Origin: Neolewinella agarilytica
Lineage (GTDB): Bacteria; Bacteroidota; Bacteroidia; Chitinophagales; Saprospiraceae
Assembly (NCBI RefSeq): GCF_900110645.1
Contig: NZ_FOFB01000009.1
Span: 8,517 to 72,516, forward strand
DNA length: 64,000 bases
Reading direction: 5' to 3'
Shown: in pieces, positions 40,519 to 43,096 of the stretch
How the letters are laid out: each line of letters begins with the position of its first letter
How positions within the stretch are numbered: position 1 is the stretch's first letter
The notes under the pieces: model-generated
What the model was told of the DNA's origin: nothing
What the model saw: only the letters and a program-made list of their open reading frames with translations
Databases searched by the model: none
Made by a program: the position numbers and the translations under genes

Positions 40519-41745
40519 TTACGCGGAGCGTAAAGTCAAGACTGTTACTTCCGGTAAAATGCCCACACGCCCCGGATAGCCCAGAAAGCCCAGCCCCCGA
40601 TTAACGTAAAGAGACTGGTTTCCCTCTCGATACAGCCCGGCCCATTGCTTGTATACGTACTGGGCGGGGCTCCATCTAAACCCCGGGATTTCGATGCCAA
40701 ACTGGAAACCATGGGTATGACCACTCAGGGTCAGGTCAATATCCGGATAGCCCGGGCGGACTTTTTCATCCCAATGCGTCGGGTCGTGGCTTAGCAGAAT
40801 CTTACAATCAGACTGTTCGGTTCCGGCATAAGCTTTAGCGAGGTCTCCTTTTTTAGGGAACCGGAAAGCCGCGCCCCAGTTTTCTACGCCCAGAATGGAG
40901 AGCTGATGACCATTAACGTTTATCTGTCGGTTCTCGTCCCTGAGTAGATCCCAGCCCAGGTCGGCATGAATGCCGTAGAGCTGTTCCATGTTGGCCTGCT
41001 TGGCCTCGGGGCTGTCCCATTCGACGTAGTCGCCATAATCGTGGTTCCCCAGAATGCTGAAAACGCCGTATTTGCCGCGGACTTCGCGGAAGATATCTAC
41101 GTAGGGGAGCATTTCTTTTGCTTCGTTGTTGACGAGGTCTCCGGTGAAACAGACGATGTCAGCAGCTTCATCGTTGATCATTTTTACGGCAGCTTTGAGG
41201 GGCTCGGACCTGGTCCAGCTACCCGAATGCATATCGCTGATCTGAACGATTTTGAGCCCGTCCAGGCCGGCCGGCAGGCCGGCTACCGGTACATCTGCAG
41301 TCATCCGCCGGTAACGATAGGCATTACGGACGACGCCATAGGTCAGCGTAGCCAGCGGTACCCCGCCCGCTATTAGTGCAGCCATTGACATAAAGCGGGA
41401 GCGACTGGTGTCCCGCTCCGTAACCGGGCTGATTTTGTTGGCGACCCAGGTAACGCCCCTCCGAAGATCATCAATGCCAAGCAGCAAAACGATGGGCAGC
41501 TTGCAGAGCCAGAAAAGGAATAGAAAGACCCGGAGAAACATCTTGGCGGATTTACCCCAGCTATCGGCTACTTCAAAAACGTTGAGTAGTAAGAAGCTGA
41601 AGGCAATCAGGGAGAGACCCCAGTAAATGGCGTAGCCTACCTTTCTTTTGGTCGCCGTATAAGGAGACAACCAACTGCGAATAGCCTGGAAGGCGTAAAT
41701 GTCTAGTGCCAGGAGGATGGCAATAAAAGTTAGAAGTCGGAGCAT
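40519..41745 (-). CDS. Membrane-anchored metallophosphoesterase
   Basis: 408 residues. Four N-terminal membrane helices (about 1-120) lead into a calcineurin-like domain: ISDMHSG (about 172-178), CFTGDLVNN (about 205-213), LGNHDY (about 237-242) and SGHTHG (about 341-346), which hold the two-metal site. It resembles the YkuE/YaeI group of phosphohydrolases acting near the membrane, sometimes on UDP-diacylglucosamine or phosphodiesters; substrate unknown. Stands alone on the - strand. Confidence 0.92.
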   Translation of the reverse strand: MLRLLTFIAILLALDIYAFQAIRSWLSPYTATKRKVGYAIYWGLSLIAFSFLLLNVFEVADSWGKSAKMFLRVFLFLFWLCKLPIVLLLGIDDLRRGVTWVANKISPVTERDTSRSRFMSMAALIAGGVPLATLTYGVVRNAYRYRRMTADVPVAGLPAGLDGLKIVQISDMHSGSWTRSEPLKAAVKMINDEAADIVCFTGDLVNNEAKEMLPYVDIFREVRGKYGVFSILGNHDYGDYVEWDSPEAKQANMEQLYGIHADLGWDLLRDENRQINVNGHQLSILGVENWGAAFRFPKKGDLAKAYAGTEQSDCKILLSHDPTHWDEKVRPGYPDIDLTLSGHTHGFQFGIEIPGFRWSPAQYVYKQWAGLYREGNQSLYVNRGLGFLGYPGRVGILPEVTVLTLRSA

Positions 41746-41850
41746 TGTGGAGAGGCTTGGAGTGTTGTAACGCTTGGGAGCGGGAATGTTTCAGGGGGGC
41801 GGGGAATTAAACCACAGAGGTGCTCAGAGGGCGGCTAGGCCGCAGAGGGG

Positions 41851-41932
41851 AGGAGGGAGGCGGAGGGATTGTTGGCTGCTTCGCAGCGGGTGGTTTCTCA
41901 CGCAGAAGGACGCGGAGGGAGCAGAGGGGAGA
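41851..41932 (+). repeat. 82-bp direct repeat, left copy
   Basis: AGGAGGGAGGCGGAGGGATT, GTTGGCTGCTTCGCAGCGGG, TGGTTTCTCACGCAGAAGG and on. Its counterpart is at 42197-42277. Confidence 0.8.
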
Positions 41933-41988
41933 TTGGGTCGCTTGAGGACGGGGATTTTGCGCGCGGAGGCCGCAGAGGGGAGGAGGGA

Positions 41989-42190
41989 GGGCTAACGCAT
42001 ACTCACCGGACGCTCAAAGGAACTCAGCAATTTCGCCTCCGGCTCCATGGCTGAGCACACTTCGAGGTCCTAGACTGCCAATTTAGGACCTCGAAGTGTG
42101 CATTTTCCGTAGCGGAGCGAAGGATAAAATGTTCCTTTCCCTTCGGGGCTGCTTCGCGGTGAGGGTCCGGCTCCGAGTATGCGTTAGCCC
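41989..42190. mobile_element. MITE-like element, 202 bp, with terminal inverted repeats
   Basis: The ends GGGCTAACGCATACTC (41989-42004) and GAGTATGCGTTAGCCC (42175-42190) are perfect 16-bp inverted repeats, extended imperfectly inward (CCGGAC and CTCA, with a bulge). A perfect internal hairpin has arms at 42055-42072 (GCACACTTCGAGGTCCTA) and 42084-42101 with an 11-base loop. The direct repeat GGGGAGGAGGGAGG abuts both sides (41977-41990 and 42193-42206), as a target duplication would. It has no transposase gene, so any movement would need one supplied elsewhere. Confidence 0.7.
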
Positions 42191-42196
42191 TGGGGG

Positions 42197-42277
42197 AGGA
42201 GGGAGGCGGAGGAATTGTTGGCTGCTTCGCAGCGGGTGGTTTCTCACGCAGAAGGACGCAGAGGGAGCAGAGGGGAA
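42197..42277 (+). repeat. 82-bp direct repeat, right copy
   Basis: Near-identical to 41851-41932, reading into the 3' flank of the DUF4340-like gene. Confidence 0.8.
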
Positions 42278-42289
42278 GCGAGGGAGGTT

Positions 42290-43096
42290 TTATTCAACAA
42301 TTTTGTCGGCTCCGAAAAAGCGATTGGGGAAATCTTCCCCGACCAGCACGTAGGGTTGTGGCCATAGCGAGTCCAGAAATACAGTGACGGTGTGTGGCTG
42401 TCCGGCGGTAAAGAAGGAGAGGGTAGCGTGGTATTTGTCGCGGTCGGCGATTTCATCGAAGTGGTCAGCGTAGCTGGGCGCAGACGCAGGTGCAAGGATG
42501 GTTTGCGCCACTTCGCCTGCTTCCGTAGGGCCAAGTCTCCAGAGGAGGCTGTCGTTTCTGGTGGCTACGATGCTGTCTACGCTCGCGGCGGCCAGGTGGA
42601 GTAGCTCTTTGCCCCGGAAGTGATCAAAGGACAGAGCGGGCAGGACGTCCGTTACTGCCTCTGGCTGCAGGGCGAAAATGTCTCCGGTGCTGGAAATACG
42701 GGCCAGCGCCGGCCCTCCGGCGCCGGCATACATCCGCAGCTCTTCTTCTCCGTATTCATCGGAGCTAAGGGTGATGGTGGTAAAGTCCTGATCCGGCAGG
42801 CTGTTGACGACGGAGTCTGTTCGCAGTTCCGTTAGTGCCCGAACAAAGTCTTCGGCCCGCGCTGACTGGTCCAGGATCTGACGATTGTCGCGGCTAACAA
42901 CCCATTGCTTATCCTCCAGGCGTGTCAGCTGGAAAGGGTGGGGCTGGCCCGGTGCGGTAACCCGCACCTGAGTAAGCTCGTCGGCCGCCGATAACAACAA
43001 CTTCTCCCGCAGGGGAGCATCGGTATACTCCTGCCAGTAGAACCAGCTGACGTAAATGAGGACTGCGAACAGAACGATGGGGATAAGACGCCGCAT
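42290..43096 (-). CDS. Membrane-anchored DUF4340-like protein
   Basis: 268 residues. An N-terminal membrane helix (about 3-20) anchors a beta-rich exported domain. The pattern PFQLTRLEDKQWVV, then a helical stretch, then VNSLPDQDF resembles DUF4340, which in some Bacteroidota is linked to gliding ABC transporter genes; that link is not seen here. The start ATG overlaps the rdgB stop (TAATG), so the two are translationally coupled. Codons for ILAPASAP (about 199-206) coincide with a copy of the TTGCACCTGCG repeat at 42476-42501. Confidence 0.65.
   Translation of the reverse strand: MRRLIPIVLFAVLIYVSWFYWQEYTDAPLREKLLLSAADELTQVRVTAPGQPHPFQLTRLEDKQWVVSRDNRQILDQSARAEDFVRALTELRTDSVVNSLPDQDFTTITLSSDEYGEEELRMYAGAGGPALARISSTGDIFALQPEAVTDVLPALSFDHFRGKELLHLAAASVDSIVATRNDSLLWRLGPTEAGEVAQTILAPASAPSYADHFDEIADRDKYHATLSFFTAGQPHTVTVFLDSLWPQPYVLVGEDFPNRFFGADKIVE
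42476..42501 (-). repeat. TTGCACCTGCG repeat inside a coding region
   Basis: On the - strand CCATCCTTGCACCTGCGTCT, then GCGCCC, translated as ILAPASAP. It could be an inserted copy that kept the frame or a chance match. Confidence 0.4.

Follow-up and report, generated by a model that had tools for sequence, protein, structure and literature searches.

The window analysed here, a 64,000-nucleotide stretch of Neolewinella agarilytica DNA, contains a short inserted element between two genes on the minus strand: a phosphoesterase-like gene at 40519-41745 (Pfam Metallophos) and a gene at 42290-43096 whose protein is weakly like DUF4340 (24.4 bits, cut-off 25). No transposase-like frame was seen inside the element, and the ORF at 42096-42353 is a mechanical frame that leaves it. 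The features are listed in Table 1. In the following, G000 denotes the own genome (6.2 Mb, 74 contigs) and G001-G020 its congeners; L numbers are loci and C numbers are contigs. Two copies of a G-rich intergenic repeat with CGCAGAGG-like units occupy 41831-41930 and 42193-42285, and the element lies inside the second of these.

Table 1. Features of the element, its flanks and the related RAYT gene.
Feature	Position	Strand	Basis and remarks
Whole element (MITE)	41988..42192	+	Ends of other copies; 205 bp, left terminal C absent in the window copy
Left terminal inverted repeat	41988..42004	+	Inverted-repeat search
Right terminal inverted repeat	42175..42191	+	Inverted-repeat search
Target-site duplication, left copy GGGGAGGAGGG	41977..41987	+	Flank comparison
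Target-site duplication, right copy	42193..42203	+	Flank comparison
Un-inserted intergenic repeat copy (internal empty-site control)	41831..41930	+	Alignment with the joined flanks
REP doublet (REPIN-like core) in the shell	42006..42170	+	R1 hit; halves match those beside the RAYT gene
Outer helix P1, 5' arm	42006..42023	+	Alignment columns
Hairpin A	42024..42054	+	Alignment
Long central arm P3 (18-bp perfect stem, 11-base loop)	42055..42101	+	Alignment, inverted repeats
Hairpin B	42102..42130	+	Alignment
P1, 3' arm, split by a 22-nt insert (42139-42160)	42131..42170	+	Alignment
C33 RAYT gene (198 aa)	L306:1363-1956 (G000:C33)	-	Found via the G001 protein, 51% identity

The terminal inverted repeats of the window element matched at 100% over 17 bp, one base more than the exact inverted termini claimed in the original prediction, and comparison with other copies set the true ends of the element at CAGGGC...GCCCTG. 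The same 11 bp, GGGGAGGAGGG, were present on both sides, with 11/11 agreement once the missing left C was allowed for. A 14-bp direct repeat had been described as abutting both ends; the repeat exists, but it does not sit exactly at both of them, as it consists of the 11-bp duplication and three chance bases, the extra AGG on the left being the element's own end. When the flanks were joined after removal of one 11-bp copy, they aligned with the un-inserted repeat copy across the junction, with 2 mismatches and one 2-base gap elsewhere. The direct repeat is not pre-existing low complexity, a possibility that had been raised, but a duplication made within the G-rich intergenic repeat. The perfect 18-bp stem with its 11-base loop was found as predicted (42055-42072 and 42084-42101), and the inverted-repeat search returned this central stem as 23 nt at 91%.

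The own genome yielded 64 matches to the element, a figure in which both strands of one place were often counted, and the objection that the segment might be single-copy was dispelled by these many copies. Twelve copies were full-length (L001-L012, of which L001 is the window copy; approximately 206-bp form) and were 94.7-100% identical to each other; diverged and partial copies occurred besides. A perfect 11-bp duplication flanked six of the twelve (L002, L003, L004, L006, L008, and L011) and a 10/11 duplication three more (L009, L010, and L012). L005 had no duplication (6/11), and L007, whose ends are degenerate, had 12/12 at 12 bp. Among older copies, the duplication was 10/10 in L024 and 9/9 in L023. 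L002, L003, L004, and L011 are inserted in copies of a single repeat and have their 11 bp in common; therefore, 13 of 132 mismatched pairs also agreed fully at 11 bp. The target site of L008 differed from all others. For eight copies selected because their targets differ, the two flanks of each copy agreed at 6, 11, 11, 10, 10, 10, 11, and 6 of the 11 bp, compared with a mean of 3.5 and a maximum of 11 for the mismatched pairs of those eight. Because of its copies at differing sites, their common ends, the duplications in most full copies and the empty-site copy, the window element is a MITE, in support of the MITE-like interpretation first proposed, and every MITE feature tested was present, parent transposon aside. 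The comparison of these sequences suggests that the unit is mobile. One insertion, L024 on contig C42, has the same flanks as L135/L161 on contig C178 of G018, a second species; the 10/10 duplications of the two are therefore one shared insertion and not two, and this is an old inherited copy.

Within the shell, a search with R1, a model of the module, matched the core of the element over 42006-42146 (127 bits, E 7.5e-29; 66.9 bits on the other strand), the only match in the window at E below 0.1. The 22-nt insert stops R1 early, and the core end at 42170 was taken from the alignment; the insert was absent from copies L015-L017. As RNA, the 206 nt folded at -118.5 kcal/mol, compared with an average of -67.9 for shuffled sequences (z -11.3; none of the 200 shuffles reached this value), and z values of -9.9 and -9.4 were obtained for the other-strand RNA and for DNA, respectively. 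In the predicted RNA fold of the window element itself, A was paired with B and the two hairpins were not formed. Related modules lie between other ends in congeners. Of 28 collected sequences, five (L018, L021, L025, L027, and L141) were set aside as partial, odd or duplicate, leaving the 23 rows of alignment A1. Alignment A2 contained 15 modules from the own genome and four congeners; eight sequences, most of them insert-bearing, were left out of it for register (L001, L019, L020, L121, L122, L124, L129, and L132), and the window copy itself thus stands outside A2.

The structure applied to A2 was drawn from L028, which folds so alone, and was tidied by hand, which favours it over the slid versions, in which 27-43% of cells were paired. 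With this four-helix structure, 91.0% of cells were paired (82.8 in shuffles), both-side changes occurred in 20 of 53 pairs (13.3 in shuffles), and 67 cells had double changes (24.0 in shuffles); none of 500 shuffles was as high on any of the three measures. The number of further pair types, 43 against 40.2, was not unusual (69 of 500 shuffles). RNAalifold on A1 returned 25 pairs, located in P1, the tip of hairpin A and P3, with no hairpin B and a covariation term of -0.81. Each half was also able to fold alone, outer with inner arm: 93.2% of cells were paired (85.0 in shuffles; slides at most 57%) and 16 cells had double changes (3.6 in shuffles), with unremarkable values for pairs with double changes (4 against 2.6; 88 of 500 shuffles) and for further types (9 against 10.4). 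That the two ways of pairing are both maintained is in keeping with a pair of REP units recognised jointly as well as one by one. With inverted halves that fold separately or with one another and show compensatory changes, the core has the form of a REP doublet; RNAalifold alone saw less of this. The module provides a covariation-supported fold for a Bacteroidota REP type.

Matched changes of this kind could also arise by mutation, if template switching evened out the imperfect palindromes with no selection acting on the fold. Quasi-palindromes are known to be corrected in this way, and all arms of the module are alike. However, outer and inner arms differ within an element and yet match within each helix, and the between-half and within-half pairings are both kept. 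We consider it unlikely that the covariation as a whole has this origin; template-switch correction may contribute to it.

The doublet is related to the flanks of a REP-associated tyrosine transposase (RAYT) gene on contig C33. The C33 protein gave E 3.1e-12 and 46.6 bits with the NCBIfam REP-associated tyrosine transposase model, under its curated cut-off of 80, and 20.5 bits with Y1_Tnp (cut-off 23); HFH and Y131 were invariant across the three RAYT proteins compared. A bare module is present on either side of the gene (90.5 and 90.1 bits), and its immediate flanks are the two halves of the adjoining bare module (left, 65/65 identical; right, 59/61); therefore, the gene is placed within the long-arm loop. 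This gene-bearing unit and the neighbouring modules are without the shell. When the C33 halves were compared with those of the window element, scores of 57 and 44 were obtained against maxima of 32 and 31 for plain letter shuffles, with 50/60 and 41/45 aligned bases identifying a related, not identical, module subfamily. The RAYT-flanking position expected of a REPIN is thus occupied by a subfamily related to that of the window element, not by its exact one. A second own RAYT, on contig C45 (L307), matched the C33 protein at 49% and the NCBIfam RAYT model with 32.4 bits; its flanks are shorter and are inverted copies of each other (56 vs 25). The window element scored 61 with the C33 arms and 30 with the C45 arms. 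In contrast, all 11 of the small type-I elements L077-L087 scored higher with the C45 than with the C33 arms, and with the C45 arms 10 of the 11 were above every shuffle (L082 was not). Shell contents of two classes are matched, one by each of the two own RAYTs.

Elsewhere in the genus, the RAYT of G001 (L272, protein P0015), which carries the RAYT name in the public source, has halves that match module L167 of G009 (61 and 63 against 33 and 34). Against the window element, these halves did not beat the shuffles (25 vs 28 and 16 vs 32), and R1 gave no hit at E<=1 on L272. When 53 genus loci with PF01797 genes (33, five of them own, and 20 new) were scanned by R1, the one hit at E below 0.001 was L240 (26.7 bits), and the PF01797-found RAYT genes were rejected as module hosts; the link is therefore to one RAYT subfamily. 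Across the family, 41 of the 110 genomes drawn, own included, had a homologue at E<=1e-6; in 31 loci from other genomes of this search (L277-L305, L308, and L309), the best R1 score was 14.2 bits (E 0.21, L277). In L240, from G020, a long branched hairpin at 1247-1373 lies directly upstream of a Y1_Tnp gene and corresponds to the weak R1 match. Five further Y1_Tnp genes were present in the own genome (L223-L227), where R1 gave just 17.9 bits, in L227; by eye, each gene of L224-L227 is surrounded by repeated hairpin elements of its own, which differ from gene to gene.

The element thus works like a MITE outside and like a REPIN inside, and the internal hairpin, whose nature had escaped the original prediction, belongs to a second mobile element, a REP doublet of RAYT type. 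It has the form and the RAYT link of a REPIN and lacks the GTAG/CGTC tag; no such unpaired tag was seen by eye at the foot of any of the 15 A2 modules. We regard a composite as the very probable explanation, with a non-autonomous cut-and-paste shell outside and a REP doublet (REPIN) inside. The outer layer, with its ends CAGGGC[TA]A[TA]CGCA... and 9-11-bp target duplications, would be moved in trans, probably by a DDE transposase. The inner layer would represent two RAYT element ends whose long-arm loop lacks the gene, and the folded module is presumably what the RAYT recognises. In this species, the doublet now appears to spread largely as cargo of the shell.

R1 matches at E<=0.001 were found in 14 of the 21 genus genomes, own included. 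The best E was below 1e-10 in ten of these (G000, G001, G003, G004, G008, G009, G013, G015, G017, and G018); the weak matches in G006, G007, G012, and G020 (best 3e-7 to 3e-5) may represent other hairpin repeats. With both strands counted, matches numbered 92 in G000, 79 in G001, 106 in G009, and 103 in G017; surroundings were viewed for one module copy in G009 and about ten in G017. The ends of the window element, here called type I, were also present in G018 and G015. In G001 and G008, modules lie between type-II ends, CA[CT]ACTACTGGACATTTTC, which were found 65 and 19 times, respectively, at <=2 mismatches, compared with 0 and 1 for the reversed pattern; in G001, the type-II shells have 9-bp duplications (9/9 in L162 and L184). 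The shells around the modules are of at least two kinds, which differ in their ends and in the length of the duplication, and several modules of G017 (L196-L201), which by eye are bordered by CGTGAGGTTTG-like repeats, perhaps have a third shell type. Four contig ends of G001 (L206-L209) stop approximately 94 bases into an element with type-II-like ends, CA[CT]ACTACTAGACATTTT, perhaps a collapsed insertion sequence that is the parent of the type-II shell.

These surroundings bear on a simpler explanation, namely that the interior is a remnant of the shell's own autonomous transposon and that RAYT genes later took up the palindromes as flanks. The interiors of MITEs are often palindromic remnants, and shell and core occur together, with both type-I ends (<=3 mismatches of 12), in 18 of the 30 own places listed. 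One end was found in four places, of which one had lost the other end, two were truncated at an IS110 junction close to a contig end and one was degenerate. However, the core is without a recognised shell in eight of the 30, two of which adjoin a RAYT; related cores lie between quite different ends in G001 and G008; and the two own RAYTs correspond to the two shell-content classes. This explanation appears improbable to us.

Alternatively, a RAYT might insert doublets into palindromes, the shell being merely a favoured target palindrome. REP dimers inserted in long palindromes have been reported from A. variabilis (GTAG-15), H. neapolitanus (CGTC-1), and T. roseum (GTAG-23), and REP-free palindromes of that kind were not found in two of the three (PMC3733652). 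As in the window, the doublet there is enclosed by a longer inverted repeat outside the REP; the enclosing repeats are read there as target palindromes, in a section that does not speak of target-site duplications, and the words "target site" are absent from the main text (PMC3733652). In contrast, the repeat that encloses the window doublet has 9-11-bp duplications and travels as a unit: near-identical whole units at many places, bordered by duplications outside the shell, imply that the unit moved in its entirety. There is little to recommend insertion into a palindrome as a general account, although it may describe the first entry of the doublet into the shell.

The composite of shell and doublet also has to be weighed against the view that the fold reflects an RNA with a cellular function that happens to be mobile. 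The covariation in four helices would agree with such an RNA; however, no Rfam family came near its gathering score for the element, and the RAYT link accounts for the fold, so that we give this view a very small chance. Least credible of all is that the outer repeats belong to the RAYT element itself and that the whole unit is moved by the RAYT, since the own gene-bearing RAYT element and its adjoining modules lack the shell and HUH Y1 enzymes are not known to make target duplications. RAYT-type genes flanked by long terminal inverted repeats have been described, as TIRYT/TIRtron elements (PMC3733652). These resemble the present case in that the gene is flanked by self-complementary repeats that are also dispersed, and some of them in Pseudomonas join degenerate REPs to unrelated stem-loops (PMC3733652); they differ from it in that the gene-bearing RAYT unit found here has no shell, and in that the shell has duplications.

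Among known systems, the composite element shares with bacterial MITEs its small size, the absence of genes, terminal inverted repeats, target duplications and many copies; unlike in those, its interior is an identifiable second mobile element. REPINs, which according to the legend of Figure S11 adopt a long hairpin or "clover" fold, likewise consist of two inverted REP units with compensatory changes, each type being tied to its own RAYT (PMC3116915). The window module differs in its length of about 145 nt, its two side hairpins, the lack of a visible tag and its location mostly inside a transposon shell. TnpA-REP subclass 2.6 is also found in Bacteroidetes, with "atypical secondary structures" near the gene and no GT[AG]G consensus, and has the motifs NH[LIV]H, WQ and YIH[QN]NP (PMC6006769); the RAYTs examined here have DHFH or NHFH, WT/WS and Y-x-HRN, which do not match these motifs exactly.

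No REP doublets inside MITE shells were found among the titles and opening lines of abstracts listed by a literature search, in which PMC3733652 was the nearest precedent, nor did we find a published account of target duplications around palindrome-enclosed REP dimers. What this case adds is that target duplications, together with near-identical whole units, are evidence that the enclosing repeat is a transposon shell, which offers a new reading of the REP dimers reported inside palindromes elsewhere. The spread of REP sequences is an open question because RAYT units seem not to move as a whole, as stated in PMC6006769, and a second way of spread is suggested here, as the content of a cut-and-paste shell. 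With REP doublets that bear a different transposon's target-site duplications, a doublet whose loop houses a RAYT gene, and two RAYTs that match two classes of content, the question of who moves what becomes testable. More tentatively, and as a possibility that we would not yet favour, the REP doublets of the genus may be a substrate of both single-strand RAYT and cut-and-paste transposases. They may have been enclosed more than once in mutually unrelated shells, of type I in G018, G015, and the window species, of type II in G001 and G008, and perhaps of a further type in G017. DDE transposons would then now account for a large share of their spread, and the REP dimers described elsewhere as "inserted in palindromes" might be unrecognised cases of this kind.

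A transposase for the shell was sought in the longer contigs of the own genome. PF13808 (ISAs1-type) had 0 matches there, which lends no support to an ISAs1 source, although ISAs1 ends begin with CAGGG; no end pairs 1-3 kb apart around a gene were seen by eye among the end matches listed for these contigs. A wider contig scan with the exact 18-base end returned three records (two Acidobacteriaceae and one Oscillatoriales). Integron attC sites were also discarded as a candidate, since by eye their core-site pattern does not fit. At three contig ends, C62 (L031), C15 (L074), and C40 (L032), 28 bp of the shell end are followed by other DNA. At 79%, this DNA resembles the upstream region of an IS110-family gene in C32 (L102; Pfam DEDD_Tnp_IS110, E 5.7e-28), and the three ends were rejected as an autonomous partner. 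C72 (L013) and C33 (L014) contain the rest of the module from the same breakpoint and then GTGCTATG, the other border of the C32 element. As the borders agree, at least three copies of the module have been invaded at one and the same site by an IS110-type element, a count that rests on the three left ends, since the two right ends may belong to the same copies. REPs have been described as targets of insertion sequences (PMC1525189).
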